Positions 31,849 to 42,522 of a stretch of 42,522 nt of DNA are shown here, in pieces. Made by a program: the position numbers and the translations under genes. The notes under the pieces are model-generated. The model was not told the origin of the DNA, did no database searches, and saw only the letters and a list, made by a program, of their open reading frames with translations. Numbering within the stretch: the stretch's first letter is position 1; each line of letters opens with the position of its first letter. The DNA comes from a virus: IMG/VR virus record IMGVR_UViG_3300045911_000201, positions 1-42,522 of that record. One strand, given 5' to 3'.

Positions 31849-32078
31849 ACGAACAGACGGTGACAGTCTCCGAACACTGGCAGGGCATCAGCCGTGGGGA
31901 CACGATCACCGTCAAAGGTGAACGCGGACAGTTCACGTTCATCCGCCACGTGCACAGTGAGCACGGCGAATGGGTCGACTGTTATGGCGGGGCCCGCAAA
32001 CAATGGCGGTCATTCCCCCCGCAACTTGTGCGAAAAGTGCGCACCCCCCGCCGTCACACCACGAAGGACACGAAATGA
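31845..32078 (+). CDS. Small conserved phage protein, beta-barrel-like
   Basis: This 77-residue basic protein contains SRGDTITVKGERGQFTFIRHV and QWRSFPPQLVRKVR, a pattern like small SH3-like phage proteins of unknown function found near WhiB genes in actinophages. Its stop overlaps the next ATG by 4 bp. Confidence 0.6.
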   Translation: MNEQTVTVSEHWQGISRGDTITVKGERGQFTFIRHVHSEHGEWVDCYGGARKQWRSFPPQLVRKVRTPRRHTTKDTK

Positions 32079-32629
32079 TCACACTCGTCCCCTACCCGTC
32101 ATTCGAACAAAGCGCACGAACACTCGACTGGCAGGATCTCAGCCAGCAACGAATCGACGCTCTCGAAATTCTCCGCGCGTTGCTCGCACCCCCTGAAGGA
32201 TGGGTCGATCATCCTGCGATCACCATGTGGGAACAACACGGGCTCGCTCTCGTCTGCTACACGCTCACCATCTGCGACGAATGGGCGGCCCGCACCTGGC
32301 TCAGCGAAACCGGTTACAGCCGTGTCGAAGACCCTGTGCGGGACACGGTGATCGAACTTGTCGCCGAACGATTCGGATGCAGCCAGGAAGCCGTCGAAAC
32401 GTTGGCCGCCTACGAGGCGCTCACCAACCCGGAACTTGTCGCCCGCACCGGTGCAAGCCTGCCATGGTGGGTTGGTCACCAGCCTGTTCACGCATCCCAC
32501 CGCTCCCTGCTCCTCCGCCGAAACCCGGTGTGGTACCAGCAGCACGGATGGGGCGAACCCGACGGTATCCCCCTCCTCTGGCCGTCAGCAACACAACCCG
32601 GGCATGTCAACGTTGAACCGGAAACGTGA
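32075..32629 (+). CDS. Pyrimidine dimer DNA glycosylase-family protein (Pyr_excise/MSMEG_6728-like)
   Basis: This 184-residue protein closely follows the family pattern: LVPYPSFEQSARTLDWQDLS, QQRIDALEILRALL, GWVDHPAITMWEQHG, TICDEWAARTW, then HRSLLLRRNPVWY and the final W-P. The family is related to T4 endonuclease V, which cuts DNA at UV pyrimidine dimers. The usual Leu-Gly-Lys after the first motif reads Leu-Ser-Gln here, so activity is not certain. Start overlaps by 4 bp. Confidence 0.75.
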   Translation: MITLVPYPSFEQSARTLDWQDLSQQRIDALEILRALLAPPEGWVDHPAITMWEQHGLALVCYTLTICDEWAARTWLSETGYSRVEDPVRDTVIELVAERFGCSQEAVETLAAYEALTNPELVARTGASLPWWVGHQPVHASHRSLLLRRNPVWYQQHGWGEPDGIPLLWPSATQPGHVNVEPET

Positions 32630-36898: not shown

Positions 36899-37501
36899 TC
36901 ACCCCCAACGCAACCCCAACACCCGGCGAACATGCTCAACATCAACCCGCCCGGCACCCTCCAAACACGCAACCGTTCGAGCAACCCGCAACACCATCCC
37001 CCGCCCCCTACCCGAACCGGGCAGCATCTCACGCGCCTCCGGTGACACACCCAGCCGATGCGACCCTGCCACCAACTCGAACGGCCCGCCCACACCCCCG
37101 CTCGCTGCGATCACATCTTTCGCACGCAAACGAACAGTAAACACGTCAGACACCCAACCTGCTTCCACAACCGGGGTCACAGCACCCGCAACAAGCAGAA
37201 CTTTGGACGGCTCCCACACCACACGCACACGGTCGATCATGCTCACAGAAAACTCGTCAACCCGGTCCACAAACAGGACACCACCGTCGGCGAGCCCCAT
37301 GCGAACAATGATCTCCGAAAACGTGGAATCCGGATCAACCACCCGAAACGGGGTTTCGTCCACCTGCTCGCCGTCAACCACCGGCGGCCGGACCAGTCGG
37401 GCAACCTGCCGGGCTGCCATCAACCTGTCAGCAGCCTGACCCCACACGAGCAGCGGATGCCACCCGGACACGGCAACCCGCAAACCGAAACCAGTCTGCA
37501 C
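36899..37501 (-). CDS. Degenerate ComM/Mg-chelatase-like AAA+ protein A
   Basis: This 200-residue protein aligns with the core of ComM/YifB Mg-chelatase-like ATPases. SGWHPLLVWGQAADRLMAAR stands where they have GGHxLLLxGPPGxGKTMLAR, so the P-loop Lys-Thr is gone. TPFRVVDPDSTFSE matches RPFRAPHHTxS, and GGVLFVDRVDEFS matches GGVLFLDELPEFS, with Arg in place of the Walker B Glu. The end, MVLRVARTVACLEGAGRVDVEHVRRVL, matches the Mg_chelatase_C domain. It should fold but not hydrolyse ATP. GTG 37501 is chosen for GAGGAGG upstream. It shares a divergent promoter with its paralog at 37621. Confidence 0.75.
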   Translation of the reverse strand: MQTGFGLRVAVSGWHPLLVWGQAADRLMAARQVARLVRPPVVDGEQVDETPFRVVDPDSTFSEIIVRMGLADGGVLFVDRVDEFSVSMIDRVRVVWEPSKVLLVAGAVTPVVEAGWVSDVFTVRLRAKDVIAASGGVGGPFELVAGSHRLGVSPEAREMLPGSGRGRGMVLRVARTVACLEGAGRVDVEHVRRVLGLRWG

Positions 37502-37537
37502 ACGTCCTCCTCGAGCGTCTGTTCGTCCTAACCGCTC

Positions 37538-37566
37538 ACAGTACGACACCCCTACTAGCACGTCAA
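37538..37566 (-). promoter_or_regulatory. Leftward sigma-70-type promoter
   Basis: On the minus strand, TTGACG (37566-37561) and TACTGT (37543-37538) are spaced by exactly 17 bp, ahead of AAA+ protein A. The leader would be about 30 bases with GAGGAGG. Confidence 0.7.
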
Positions 37567-37585
37567 CCCGCACCACCCCCCAGGG

Positions 37586-37614
37586 TTGACAGCCGCCGCC
37601 CACAATCATACGAT
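37586..37614 (+). promoter_or_regulatory. Rightward sigma-70-type promoter, leaderless transcript
   Basis: TTGACA (37586-37591) and TACGAT (37609-37614) are spaced by 17 bp. The expected start site, seven bases after the -10, is the G of the GTG at 37621, so the mRNA would be leaderless, a common form in actinobacteria. Confidence 0.75.
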
Positions 37615-37620
37615 CAGACC

Positions 37621-38280
37621 GTGACGAACGACAAGGAGGACACCACAACCACTACCACCACCACTGCACCAGCCTTGTTCCCGGTCGAGGTTGCCGCTAC
37701 TGGCCGCCATCACGTCTTGCTGGTCGGCCCTCAGGGCCCGGACCGGCTGGCCGCCGCCATGCGGGTCGCCGCCGCCTTGCCTGCCGGCGTGCCTTTCGTG
37801 GCGCTCGACGACTATTTCGCCACCCCGTGGACTGTCGAGGAGGCTATGAAGGCCGCTGAGGGTGGGGTTCTGTTCGTGGACCGGCTGGACGAAACCGGCT
37901 GGGGTACGCCAGCCATGTTGAGGCCGGCGGTCGATGCGGGCCGCTTTCTGCTGATCGTTGCGGTGAGCAAGGTCCCCACCCCCGGCCCTTTGACCGACCG
38001 TATCTTCGAGCGGTTGCCGGTCCGGCTGCCGGTGGCCGAGGTGCTGGCCGCTCACGCTGGTGAGGGCCCGGTGGCCCCGGTGGACGCTGCCGGTGTCGAG
38101 CTGGACGATGGCGGGCTGGATGTCATGAAGGCCGCCACCATGGTCGGGTTGGTGATCGGTGATGTCGAGTGGCATGCCACGGCTGGTGTCGCTAAGACGG
38201 CGGCTGTCATGCTCGGCTACCGGCGGGCGAACGCTGATCATGTGCGGGCCGCCCTGGCGTGGCGGGACGCTAGGCGGTGA
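37621..38280 (+). CDS. Degenerate ComM/Mg-chelatase-like AAA+ protein B
   Basis: This 219-residue protein is a distant paralog of the leftward gene. After a Thr-rich start, GRHHVLLVGPQGPDRLAAAMR is a Walker A relic (GPQGPDRL in place of GPPGxGKT). GGVLFVDRLDE is the Walker B region with the same Glu-to-Arg change. Later come RIFERLPVRLPV and a C-terminal helical segment YRRANADHVRAAL, like the Mg_chelatase_C end. The start is GTG with no ribosome binding site but an ideally placed promoter. Base composition is GC-rich compared with the neighbouring clamp. The two products could form a complex in which ATP plays no part. Confidence 0.75.
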   Translation: MTNDKEDTTTTTTTTAPALFPVEVAATGRHHVLLVGPQGPDRLAAAMRVAAALPAGVPFVALDDYFATPWTVEEAMKAAEGGVLFVDRLDETGWGTPAMLRPAVDAGRFLLIVAVSKVPTPGPLTDRIFERLPVRLPVAEVLAAHAGEGPVAPVDAAGVELDDGGLDVMKAATMVGLVIGDVEWHATAGVAKTAAVMLGYRRANADHVRAALAWRDARR

Positions 38281-38335
38281 GCGGGGCAGTCGCTAACCAG
38301 CCGACAACGACGAACGACAAAAAGGAACCCAGTCT

Positions 38336-39082
38336 ATGAACACAATCACCGGCACCATGCTCACCCGAGCAATCCGCCAAATCGCCGGAGCAGCCAGCCG
38401 CAACAAAACCCTACCCCACCTCAACGGAATACTCTTAGAAAACACTGGTGACCGGCTACAACTCACCGCCTGCGACAGCTACCGGGTCGCCATACGCACC
38501 ACACTCCCACTCCCCGGCCTGAAACAAGGCGAAAAGCTCCTCATCCCAGCCCCCGTGCTGCGTGACACCGCCCAACAGTTGCAAGGCACCGGACCGGTAA
38601 CCGTCACCGCAACCGGCCAGAACACCGCAACCTTCGAAACTGATGGCACACAAGTGACTGTTCCACTACTCGACAGCCACAACTATCCGAACCTTGACCG
38701 GTACACCAGTCTCACACACCCATACCAGTATGTGGTAGCACGCCGCCCGCTTGTCGACAGTTTCAAATGGATGCAATCAGCGGTCGGCAAACAGGCCAAA
38801 GTGCGAGTGTGGTTCACCGTGTACGACATGGAAGTCGCCGGCCAACTAGGCGATGGTGACGAGGCACGGTTTTCGTTTCCTGTTGAAAAAGTTGAGAGCA
38901 CGGGGGGCGGCCGGACGCCTGACGTGGAAACAGCGGTGAACATCGGGTTTTTCCGTGCCGGTGTCGAGGCTGCTCGCACTGATCATGTTGTGATCCAGGT
39001 TTTGGATTCGACAAGCCCGATCGTGATCCGCTCGGAACCTGAGGACGGCTACCGGTACGTGTTCATGCCGTTCCGAAAGTGA
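38336..39082 (+). CDS. Two-domain sliding clamp-like protein (DnaN domains II and III only)
   Basis: This 248-residue clamp starts at domain II: AIRQIAGAASRNKTLPHLNGILLE and DRLQLTACDSYRVAIRT line up with residues about 128-170 of the full clamp next door. The end, PIVIRSEPEDGYRYVFMPFRK, matches the last strand of domain III. Domain I is missing; there is no leftover piece of it. The partner-binding pocket between II and III should be kept. Two-domain clamps elsewhere (T4 gp45, PCNA) form trimers with six domains. AAAGGA precedes the ATG. Confidence 0.8.
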   Translation: MNTITGTMLTRAIRQIAGAASRNKTLPHLNGILLENTGDRLQLTACDSYRVAIRTTLPLPGLKQGEKLLIPAPVLRDTAQQLQGTGPVTVTATGQNTATFETDGTQVTVPLLDSHNYPNLDRYTSLTHPYQYVVARRPLVDSFKWMQSAVGKQAKVRVWFTVYDMEVAGQLGDGDEARFSFPVEKVESTGGGRTPDVETAVNIGFFRAGVEAARTDHVVIQVLDSTSPIVIRSEPEDGYRYVFMPFRK

Positions 39083-39109
39083 AGAAACCGAACAAACAAG
39101 GGGTTGGAT

Positions 39110-40210
39110 GTGAAGTTTCAATGCGAACAGGATGCCCTGACCGAAGCTTTGACAACGGCAGGCCGGGCGATCTCGAAACGTGGAACACTTATGTCCCCCA
39201 GGGTTCTCAACGGGCTCAGATTCGACATCAACGGCGACAAGTTGACTGTCACAGGCACCGACCTGGAACTCACCATCGAGGTGACCGTGCCAGTGTCATC
39301 CACCGTCGACGGGTCTGCTCTGCTCCCCGCCAGATTGGTTTCTGACATCGTCCGCTCCTTCGCCCCGGGAACAATCCAGGTGGAAGTGAACGATGAGGAG
39401 GCCACGCTGTCGTCGGGCCGTTCCCGGTTCGCGGTGCGGGTGCTGTCGGTGGACGACTTCCCCCAGCACGCCCTGTTGCGCGGCGAGCCCGTGGCGTTGG
39501 ACGCGGCCACCTTCGCCGAGGCGCTGCGTCAGGTGGTCCGGGCCGCCAGCACCGACATAACCCGACCGGTGCTGACCGGGGTGCTGCTGGCCGCCGAGGA
39601 GGACGGCCTCCGGTTGGTGGCCACCGACTCGTACCGGCTGGCGGTGCGCGACCTGCCCGGCACGCACATGCTGCACCCCGGGCAGCACGTGCTGGTGCCC
39701 TCCAGGGCGCTTCAAGAGCTGGTCCGGCTGCTCGGAAAAGGGGGCACTCTGGCCGTCCGGCTGGGTGAGCGGGAGGCGAGCTTCGAAGCGCAAGACGTGC
39801 GGTTGACCACCCGGCTGATCAAAGGCGAGTTCCCCGACTACCGTCAGCTGATCCCAGAGTCGTACCCAAACCGCCTGGTGGTGGGTCGAGAGCCGCTGCT
39901 CGACGCCATCAAGCGGGTGAAGCTGATGGCCCGGGAGTCGGCCCCGATCCGCCTGGGGTTGTCCGAAGAGGGGCTTGAGCTCACCGCGATCACCAAAGAT
40001 GTTGGCCAGGCGAGCGAGTCGGTGGACGCCACTTTCACCGGGTCAGAACTTACTGTGGCTTTCAACGCCGAGTTCCTCAGCGCCGGGGTTGATGCCGTGG
40101 GCGGCGACGAAGTGGTTTTGGAGAACATCAGCCCGGTGAAGCCTGCGGTGATCAGATCCGGGCAGGATGACAGTTACCTGTACCTGCTTATGCCGGTGCG
40201 GATGAGATAG
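39110..40210 (+). CDS. dnaN: DNA polymerase III beta sliding clamp, full length
   Basis: This 366-residue clamp has all three domains. The N-terminus MKFQCEQDALTEALTTAGRAIS and TVTGTDLELTIEV are as in actinobacterial DnaN, especially Acidimicrobiia as I recall them; domain II holds VLTGVLLAAEEDGLRLVATDSYRLAVRD; the end is YLYLLMPVRMR. It tethers polymerase to DNA as a dimeric ring. GTG 39110 is preferred to TTG 39104 because AAGGGG lies six bases upstream. GC is about 74% at 39421-39600 against about 58% in the counted part of the shorter clamp, which suggests recent gain from the host. Confidence 0.9.
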   Translation: MKFQCEQDALTEALTTAGRAISKRGTLMSPRVLNGLRFDINGDKLTVTGTDLELTIEVTVPVSSTVDGSALLPARLVSDIVRSFAPGTIQVEVNDEEATLSSGRSRFAVRVLSVDDFPQHALLRGEPVALDAATFAEALRQVVRAASTDITRPVLTGVLLAAEEDGLRLVATDSYRLAVRDLPGTHMLHPGQHVLVPSRALQELVRLLGKGGTLAVRLGEREASFEAQDVRLTTRLIKGEFPDYRQLIPESYPNRLVVGREPLLDAIKRVKLMARESAPIRLGLSEEGLELTAITKDVGQASESVDATFTGSELTVAFNAEFLSAGVDAVGGDEVVLENISPVKPAVIRSGQDDSYLYLLMPVRMR

Positions 40211-40732
40211 CTAAAGGTGTACGCGTGCGACCAGCCGTGTGTCCCCGGCAGCAAGGTCAGCTTCCGCACACACAACATCCACTGTCACATCTAAAACATC
40301 CAGCAGGCTGGTGAGCGGCACGTTCTCATACCACTCGCCAGGCCGTGGAGGCCCAGACCCGTCCGCAGCGTGCGCCGCCCGGCCCGTGCCAGCACACGTG
40401 ATAATCAGCCATCCGCCAGGGCGAAGCACGTGAACCATCCCTCGAACGATCCCCTGCCACACGGGTGAATGTTCCAACGCTTCGGTTGACACCGCTATGT
40501 CAAAACAACCTGCGGGCATGGCAGGAAGCAAGGTTGCAGCGTCACCAACAAGGTTCACGTCCGGGCCTGACAGCAGATCGACGCCAACCCATTCCGCCCA
40601 TCCTCCTGGCAGAAAGTCACGGGCCCGACCGTTCACGTTGAACGCACCAACCTCAACCACCCGCGCACCAGCCATGTCCGCTTCGACGAGCGGTGCGACA
40701 GAACGTAAAAATTGTGCGGCCTCATCGTGCAT
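40211..40732 (-). CDS. SAM-dependent methyltransferase A
   Basis: This 173-residue class I methyltransferase has motif I ARVVEVGAFNVNGRARD, motif II GVDLLSGPDVNLVGDA, motif III/IV FDIAVSTEALEHSP and HVLRPGGWLIITCAG. The N-terminus is short, so the acceptor part is small. GGAGGG precedes the ATG. Its stop abuts the clamp stop (TAG/CTA), with no terminator between. It is last in the leftward operon. Confidence 0.85.
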   Translation of the reverse strand: MHDEAAQFLRSVAPLVEADMAGARVVEVGAFNVNGRARDFLPGGWAEWVGVDLLSGPDVNLVGDAATLLPAMPAGCFDIAVSTEALEHSPVWQGIVRGMVHVLRPGGWLIITCAGTGRAAHAADGSGPPRPGEWYENVPLTSLLDVLDVTVDVVCAEADLAAGDTRLVARVHL

Positions 40733-40759
40733 CGCTCGAAACCCTCCAAATCCGCACGC

Positions 40760-41323
40760 TCAACCTGCGACACGGCCGTAGACAGCGCACTGCCACTCAA
40801 CACGTAACACAACCGGCCAACCATTCAACAATTCCGAACCCAACGGCACCCCGGTCACTCCCACAAACCCTGCCGTTTCAAGCGCATCCACCACACGCTG
40901 TTCGTGTGCGTTCCAGTGGTGACGAGCCCCATCCCACACACTCTCGTCACCCAGCCCTGGTTTCGAACTGTCCCCTTCTAAACACTGGACAACCAGCCAC
41001 CACGGCTCCAACCCGTCACGCCACCGTTCAATCACCCGAAAACAATCAGGGCCGACCACCAGCACCTCGCCACCTGGGGCAAGGACCCGGGTGACACCCG
41101 CCAAAAACTCTGGCACCCAACCCCAAGGAACGTGTTCTAACACGTGACCGAGAAACACCCGGTCAAACCCGCCGGCCGGAAACACTTCATCCAACCGCAC
41201 CCTTGCGGGCACAACCTGATCGGGCGTAATCCCCAACTCGGGGCGGCACACAACATCCACGTTATGCCAGCCCGGTGCGTAATGCTGGCCGCAACCCACG
41301 TTCAACCAACGTGACACGTTCAT
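40760..41323 (-). CDS. SAM-dependent methyltransferase B
   Basis: This 187-residue methyltransferase has motif I WLNVGCGQHYAPGWHNVDVV, FDRVFLGHVLEHVPWGWVPEFLAG and VLAPGGEVLVVGPD, the pattern of methyltransferases beside glycosyltransferases in sugar clusters. Its ATG overlaps the previous stop by 4 bp (ATGA). Acceptor is unknown; sugar methylation is suggested by context. Confidence 0.85.
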   Translation of the reverse strand: MNVSRWLNVGCGQHYAPGWHNVDVVCRPELGITPDQVVPARVRLDEVFPAGGFDRVFLGHVLEHVPWGWVPEFLAGVTRVLAPGGEVLVVGPDCFRVIERWRDGLEPWWLVVQCLEGDSSKPGLGDESVWDGARHHWNAHEQRVVDALETAGFVGVTGVPLGSELLNGWPVVLRVEWQCAVYGRVAG

Positions 41324-41973
41324 GTCCCCGACAAGCCGCTGTCAAAATCGATCGCAGCGACAGGCAATCCTATCTTCCATGACACGTACGGGACCGCAAG
41401 CGGGTCGTGCAAAGACCAACGCAAACATTCGCGGATGATCATGTCACCGAACTCGACCGCATACCACGTGTTCCGGTAGACGATCACCGTGGTCGCCCAA
41501 AGCCCGTAATCATCGGGCATCCCGCACACGTGCAAATAGTGCTCGGCCTGTTCGATGATCCGCTGCCCTTTGTACTGTTTCATCGCGGCGGCGGCGACCG
41601 CCTCGTCTGTTAGCCGTGTCCGATCCGGGTGCGGGATCATCGCCACATCCGCGGGTCGTGGCGACCAGCGGACCAGTGAATCTGAGAGAACAGCGATCGT
41701 ATCCGCACTGTTGATGCGCACACCCCCGTCCACCCATATAAGAATGTCAGTGTCAGGTGGCGCATAGTCTGCGGGAGCGTATTTGACTAGTTGTTCCGCC
41801 AGCCGCGGGTGCAAATGTGGGCGTGGCTCGTATCGCACCTGCCATATGTCGCTTGACAGCCGCCGGTCAGAGATTGCGATCCATGTTGCGTCCACGGTTT
41901 GTGCGGGCGGGTCAACCAGAAGGGTGTCACCGTACACGCTGGTTAGAACAACGATTCTGCTGGTTGTTCCCAT
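41320..41973 (-). CDS. DUF616/TOD1-MUCI70-like glycosyltransferase
   Basis: This 217-residue protein has RIVVLTSVYGD at the N-terminus, DILIWVDGGVRI (about 83-94; a DxD-like WVDG) and YGLWATTVIVYRNT, the pattern of DUF616 glycosyltransferase-like proteins. GGAGG five bases before ATG 41973 decides the start over an ATG eight codons upstream. It overlaps the upstream glycosyltransferase by 31 bp. It may add a sugar to a virion glycan. Confidence 0.75.
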   Translation of the reverse strand: MGTTSRIVVLTSVYGDTLLVDPPAQTVDATWIAISDRRLSSDIWQVRYEPRPHLHPRLAEQLVKYAPADYAPPDTDILIWVDGGVRINSADTIAVLSDSLVRWSPRPADVAMIPHPDRTRLTDEAVAAAAMKQYKGQRIIEQAEHYLHVCGMPDDYGLWATTVIVYRNTWYAVEFGDMIIRECLRWSLHDPLAVPYVSWKIGLPVAAIDFDSGLSGT

Positions 41974-42522
41974 GCTTGCCTCCAAGCTTCCGCCCATTCG
42001 CTTGCCCTGGTTTCACAGGTGTTCGCTGCGGCAACCTTGAAACCTTGTTCGCGCAGTCTTGTCCGATAGTCATCGTCGTCCACCAGGCGCACAATATGCC
42101 GTGCCCAGTCGCGTGGCCGCCGGGCGATCACACCGACCCCCAGCTCATGCAACCGCTCATATTCGGGTAGCGGGGACATGATCGGAACCGCACCCACCGC
42201 CGCCGCTTCTAACGGTTTCAACCAGCTTTTCGCACGGTTGAACGGCGTGTTCTTCAACGGGCACAACGCGACGTCAAGTGTCCCGTAAGCGGCCGGATAG
42301 TCGGCAAGGTCAACCCATCCGGTTGTCTCGTCGGGCGCAACGCCCAGTGCGTGTGTCACACCTCTGCCGGTGCCAACCACTTTGAATTTGAACCCGGCAC
42401 GTGTGCGGGCACATGCCTGCCGCAACCCGGTGCCGATTTCTTCCAAGTCCTCAGGGTGTGTGAGCACGGAACCTGTCCAACCGACAGTCACGACACTATG
42501 CCTGCCCGTATGTGCACGGGGG
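41943..42522 (-). CDS. Glycosyltransferase, GT4-like, C-terminal part (continues from position 1)
   Basis: This is the C-terminal segment of the gene starting at 744; bases 42396-42522 duplicate 1-127. It begins in the linker ahead of VVTVGWTGSVLTHPEDLEEI and has the donor-site motif KSWLKPLEAAAVGAVPIMSPLPEY, as in retaining GT-B enzymes (first Glu of E-x7-E). The end is helical. After circularisation the protein is 398 residues. Confidence 0.85.
   Translation of the reverse strand, partial: PRAHTGRHSVVTVGWTGSVLTHPEDLEEIGTGLRQACARTRAGFKFKVVGTGRGVTHALGVAPDETTGWVDLADYPAAYGTLDVALCPLKNTPFNRAKSWLKPLEAAAVGAVPIMSPLPEYERLHELGVGVIARRPRDWARHIVRLVDDDDYRTRLREQGFKVAAANTCETRASEWAEAWRQAWEQPAESLF
42396..42522. 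repeat. Terminal direct repeat, right copy
   Basis: This is identical to bases 1-127; see the left copy. Remove one copy to get the circular genome. Confidence 0.95.

Follow-up and report, generated by a model that had tools for sequence, protein, structure and literature searches.

A DnaN-type sliding clamp without domain I encoded beside a complete, host-like clamp in an actinobacterial phage

Bacterial sliding clamps are generally taken to be dimers of three-domain DnaN chains. The phage locus analyzed here encodes, immediately upstream of a complete DnaN, a second DnaN-type protein with two domains per chain instead of three, which raises the question of whether this short protein closes a ring of its own, joins the neighboring clamp, acts outside a ring, or has no present function. 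A clamp ring consists of six domains (PMC9690074), and the arithmetic put forward in the first-pass annotation, whereby three chains of two domains would also amount to six, is right.

The window, that is, the whole 42,522-nt stretch of DNA analyzed (an IMG/VR virus record), originates from an uncultured actinobacterial phage, and because an exact 127-nt repeat is present at its ends (positions 1-127 are identical to 42396-42522), the phage genome is complete, at about 42.4 kb. It carries the tailed-phage genes for terminase, portal, major capsid, and tape-measure proteins, as well as a set of replication and repair genes encoding a family-A DNA polymerase, an SNF2-type helicase, a PD-(D/E)XK exonuclease, a Sak4-type protein, and a Prim-Pol/D5 primase-helicase; a pyrimidine-dimer DNA glycosylase domain (PF03013) is also encoded in the replication region. 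No clamp-loader homolog was recognized among the phage proteins scanned, the count of clamp-binding motifs in the phage proteins was not above chance, and the phage polymerase had no such motif beyond chance. Upstream of the short clamp gene lie two adjacent divergent paralogs, 34% identical to each other and weakly similar to Mg-chelatase/AAA proteins, both with a P-loop that lacks the usual lysine and with the hydrophobic Walker B-like motif GGVLFVDR kept; phage records and viral contigs yielded no relatives of these two proteins. On the minus strand, the full clamp gene is followed directly by a cluster of methyltransferase-like and glycosyltransferase-like genes (Table 1).

Table 1. Coordinates of the two clamp genes, their parts, and other genes discussed, as positions in the window
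Feature	Position	Strand	Details
Short DnaN-type protein, domains II and III only	38336..39082	+	ATG start, 248 aa
Domain II part, aa 1-122, pocket motif ACDSYRVA	38336..38701	+	PF02767 at aa 4-119, E 2.3e-15
Domain III part, aa 123-248, complete; I272S, L273A, R269W (E. coli numbering); C-terminal pocket motif MPFR kept	38702..39079	+	
Shine-Dalgarno-like AAGGA of the short gene	38322..38326	+	Sequence; 9 nt before ATG
Complete three-domain DnaN, host-like, canonical dimer residues kept	39110..40210	+	TIGR00663, 297.5 bits; GTG start
Mg-chelatase/AAA-like paralog	36899..37648	-	
Mg-chelatase/AAA-like paralog	37621..38280	+	
Pyrimidine-dimer DNA glycosylase domain	31970..32629	+	
Methyltransferase-like and glycosyltransferase-like gene cluster	40211..42491	-	

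The short protein matches the DnaN profile TIGR00663 over positions 129-366 of 367, with a score of 82 bits, below the NCBIfam cut-off of 137.65, and covers positions 129-364 of phrog_947. The Pfam scan yielded DNA_pol3_beta families only, namely the central domain (Table 1) and the C-terminal domain (E 2e-4, under Pfam's cut-off), with no match to PCNA or gp45 and no HTH. When the short protein is aligned with 118 other clamps, its first residue corresponds to residue 129 of the neighboring clamp (TTG numbering), where domain II starts, bearing out the boundary proposed in the first-pass annotation; the suggestion made there that the protein ends like domain III likewise agrees with the extent of the TIGR00663 match and with the domain-wise comparison, in which the N-terminal half scored best against domain II (median Smith-Waterman score 149, vs. 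73 for domain I) and the C-terminal half against domain III (median 100). These scores rule out a protein made of domain I fused to domain III. Because the open frame extends only 13 codons upstream of the start, beyond which lies a different gene, there is no domain I remnant. Compared with the DnaN beta clamp, the short protein thus shares domains II and III, the fold, and the pocket motifs, and differs in the absence of domain I, the changed dimer-contact residues, and the subthreshold profile score. It is 33% identical to the neighboring clamp over domains II-III and 20-33% identical to the aligned clamps in general.

The neighboring protein is a complete DnaN with all three domains, as had been supposed, and retains F106 and I78 of domain I. 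Its likely start is the GTG at 39110 rather than the TTG at 39104, with AAGGGG at 39098-39103, so that it begins 27 nt past the stop of the short gene, in the same direction and frame. Over domains II-III, it is 67% identical to an Ilumatobacteraceae sequence. In a tree of the kind that the first-pass annotation had recommended, this full clamp nests among the DnaN proteins of Acidimicrobiia, which suggests that the host is probably acidimicrobial, and the short protein sits on a long, unsurely placed branch (end branch of 1.44 changes per column vs. 0.31 for the neighbor). A recent duplication of the neighbor is not supported by the best tree, yet sisterhood of the two clamps survives the AU test (p 0.22), as does a position of the short clamp with the Acidimicrobiia group (p 0.39). 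The domain III half of the short protein has the neighboring clamp as its best match, and the third-codon composition shifts along the gene, which starts out C/A-rich, like the primase gene, and becomes richer in G/T where domain III is encoded; from these two features, the short gene may be mosaic or gene-converted.

Despite the low overall identity, the residue class is kept in the short protein at 37 of the 39 near-invariant structural positions and at 18 of the 19 near-invariant pocket positions, the level of conservation seen in intact phage clamps, which makes it unlikely, as far as sequence constraint can tell, that the gene is a pseudogene. The pocket residues that changed are T172C, L177V, and V247Y. 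An AlphaFold2 model built with 74 aligned family members (pLDDT 94.5, pTM 0.90) aligns structurally with E. coli DnaN residues 128-366 at a Z of about 27 and an rmsd of 2.1-2.4 over about 237 residues, and places domains II and III in a ring-like relative orientation. A control consisting of domains II-III cut from the full clamp scored alike (pLDDT 95.5, pTM 0.91, Z about 31), so the model speaks to the integrity of both domains and not to the assembly state of the short protein, and given the score of this fragment, model confidence was discarded as a sign of function. On the channel-lining helices of the family fold, three near-invariant basic residues are gone (K198P, R205Q, and R269W), but the four inner helices nevertheless have a combined charge of +5, which ties for the top value among 116 clamps, and we therefore no longer counted lost channel charge against a ring. 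Domains II-III have a net charge of +1, compared with -18 to -1 in the comparison clamps. The high inner-helix charge and the positive net charge make DNA contact plausible and constitute the strongest remaining argument for a ring.

The contacts that lock the DnaN ring tell a different story. In the E. coli clamp, domain I contributes I78 and F106 to the stabilization of the dimer and domain III contributes I272 and L273; a variant carrying I272A/L273A is a monomer (PMC11139829). The substitutions in the short protein, with serine and alanine in place of I272 and L273 and tryptophan in place of R269, come close to this mutant, and hydrophobic residues are absent from both positions in only one of the 116 comparison clamps. 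Interface loss was nonetheless abandoned as proof of a monomer, because variation at one or both of these sites, mostly together with F106, also occurs in seven intact phage clamps. Judged from the aligned residues, the domain III of the short protein is poorly suited to the domain I of its neighbor, with S/A where the F106/I78 edge expects hydrophobics. When the domain II edge of the short protein was mapped onto the domain I edge, no clear sign of its becoming domain I-like was seen, in a register that is itself ambiguous.

Single-sequence scans recovered no close relatives of the short protein, and the main scans yielded no stand-alone two-domain clamp among 31 viral and 80 genomic relatives (in one fetched locus, L033, the clamp is cut by the contig edge); none of the matches listed in 149 genomes of the phylum falls within an open frame shorter than 345 aa. 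A further scan retrieved a phage locus, L171, encoding a 215-aa protein in which domain II is followed by no more than the second half of domain III, and through it the proteins of Gordonia phages Horus (gp57), Sproutie (gp47), and Jace (gp60) and Mycobacterium phage Tortellini (gp57), of 233-246 aa. Like the short protein, these phrog_12598-type clamps stand alone, lack domain I, and keep the pocket ends without the dimer contacts, but they retain 5-11 residues of the first half of domain III, compared with 66 in the short protein, and each is the sole DnaN-type gene found in its own record, whereas the short protein has a full clamp adjoining. The match of the short protein to phrog_12598 itself (E 7.3e-5) covers residues 4-56 only. 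Of the stand-alone clamps lacking domain I that were found, ours alone has, by sequence, a complete domain III. The depositors name the Horus, Sproutie, Tortellini, and Jace proteins sliding clamps or polymerase beta subunits; several RefSeq copies say RusA-like resolvase, and the RusA-like Holliday junction resolvase label carried by loci L174, L179, L180, and L181 (phrog_12598, phrog_3007) is probably a misannotation. The 74-aa neighbor of Sproutie gp47 (gp48; L179, 3139-3363) is annotated as a sliding clamp and shows nothing clamp-like by eye.

Domain I is also missing from a bacterial group of Streptomycetaceae proteins (e.g., WP_072485474), in which DnaN domains II-III are fused to a MerR HTH and the pocket is kept, with the dimer segment lost or scrambled. 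In a Streptomyces-like family (represented by G028), 12 of 41 genomes had a match to such a fusion, and the loci include L005 (2623-3690), L006 (2638-3711), and L154-L165. In contrast to the short protein, which begins at domain II, they carry the HTH at the N terminus and are strongly negative (-11 to -20 in the four measured); they are possibly regulators that sense clamp-binding proteins. No studies of clamps without domain I were found in the literature searched, and the toxic phage clamp Adephagia gp35, considered as an experimentally studied short clamp, was ruled out by its 402 codons.

The combination of a missing domain I, lost dimer contacts, and a kept pocket, common to all these relatives, argues for a noncanonical, pocket-bearing clamp derivative without DnaN-style ring closure over an ordinary DnaN ring, and we tentatively favor this reading, at somewhat less than an even chance. 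The S/A/W residues at contacts nearly always kept in the comparison clamps point the same way, as does the adjoining host-like clamp, which would be able to serve as the ordinary ring; pulling against it are the complete first half of domain III, the inner-helix and net charges that suit a DNA-encircling ring, the variation at 272/273 in intact phage clamps, and the lack of a motif excess in the phage proteins. The chief alternative is that a DnaN-type clamp was rebuilt as a homotrimer: three II-III chains would close a six-domain ring, with domain II of each meeting domain III of its neighbor at a newly formed interface, as in PCNA and gp45, and would keep a polymerase on DNA. A complete domain III and positive inner helices make such an interface possible, and the ring-like orientation of two complete domains, the kept pocket, and the six-domain rule fit it as well. 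PCNA and T4 gp45, which are trimers of two-domain chains, resemble the short protein in length and fold, although it has no sequence match to either and is a trimer only as a candidate. The E. coli beta* protein, a product in its own right that spans approximately DnaN domains II-III, arises from an internal dnaN start and retains I272/L273, unlike the short clamp, which is encoded by a separate, diverged gene; beta* has reportedly been described as a trimeric clamp, and if this is right, domains II-III alone can trimerize when I272/L273 are present. We nevertheless regard the homotrimer as rather unlikely, considering that the canonical domain III contacts are lost, the domain II edge offers no clear replacement, neither a clamp loader nor a polymerase clamp-binding motif beyond chance was recognized, the half of domain III that would serve in a ring is also missing from the relatives without domain I, and the phage already possesses a full, host-like clamp. 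That such a three-chain ring arose in convergence with PCNA/gp45 and stands beside a host-like DnaN, giving a single phage two clamp architectures, is slightly less likely again.

Two other explanations appear improbable. The short subunit could join the full or host clamp and cap or poison it as an open assembly, for which one can cite the adjacent, codirectional genes and the toxicity to Mycobacterium that overproduced three-domain phage clamps can have (PMC11373665, PMC9339283), but the reported toxic clamps are full-size (376 aa; 402 codons). A closed ring of short and full clamp is disfavored in any case, because three plus two domains do not make six and because the short domain III lacks the residues to meet the F106/I78 edge, a difficulty that weighs on the open, capped assembly too, itself a separate candidate. 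Marginally more improbable is that the second clamp gene is decaying or mosaic and has no function at present; the long end branch, the codon shift, and the lack of a close relative would fit decay, whereas the open reading frame is intact and has a ribosome-binding site, the near-invariant positions are kept, and the truncation falls exactly at a domain boundary.

Under the favored reading of a pocket-bearing derivative, the loss of domain I and of the domain III residues that grip domain I of the next chain would preclude a DnaN-style ring, and the short protein would most likely be a monomer or a loose oligomer. Its pocket would bind short clamp-binding peptides and its positive helices would face DNA, and it would thereby engage host or phage clamp-binding proteins, such as polymerase, repair, and recombination enzymes, at DNA, an activity that might either bring these partners to phage DNA or keep them off the host clamp, with the full clamp next door serving as the ordinary ring.

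Overall, clamps without domain I, in which the pocket is kept and the ring lock is lost, occur in several actinophages and in Streptomycetaceae. The short protein is a real, constrained, and uncommon member that joins this existing, largely undescribed class, and it offers a good test case for the passage from a ring clamp to either a two-domain ring or a non-ring adaptor.
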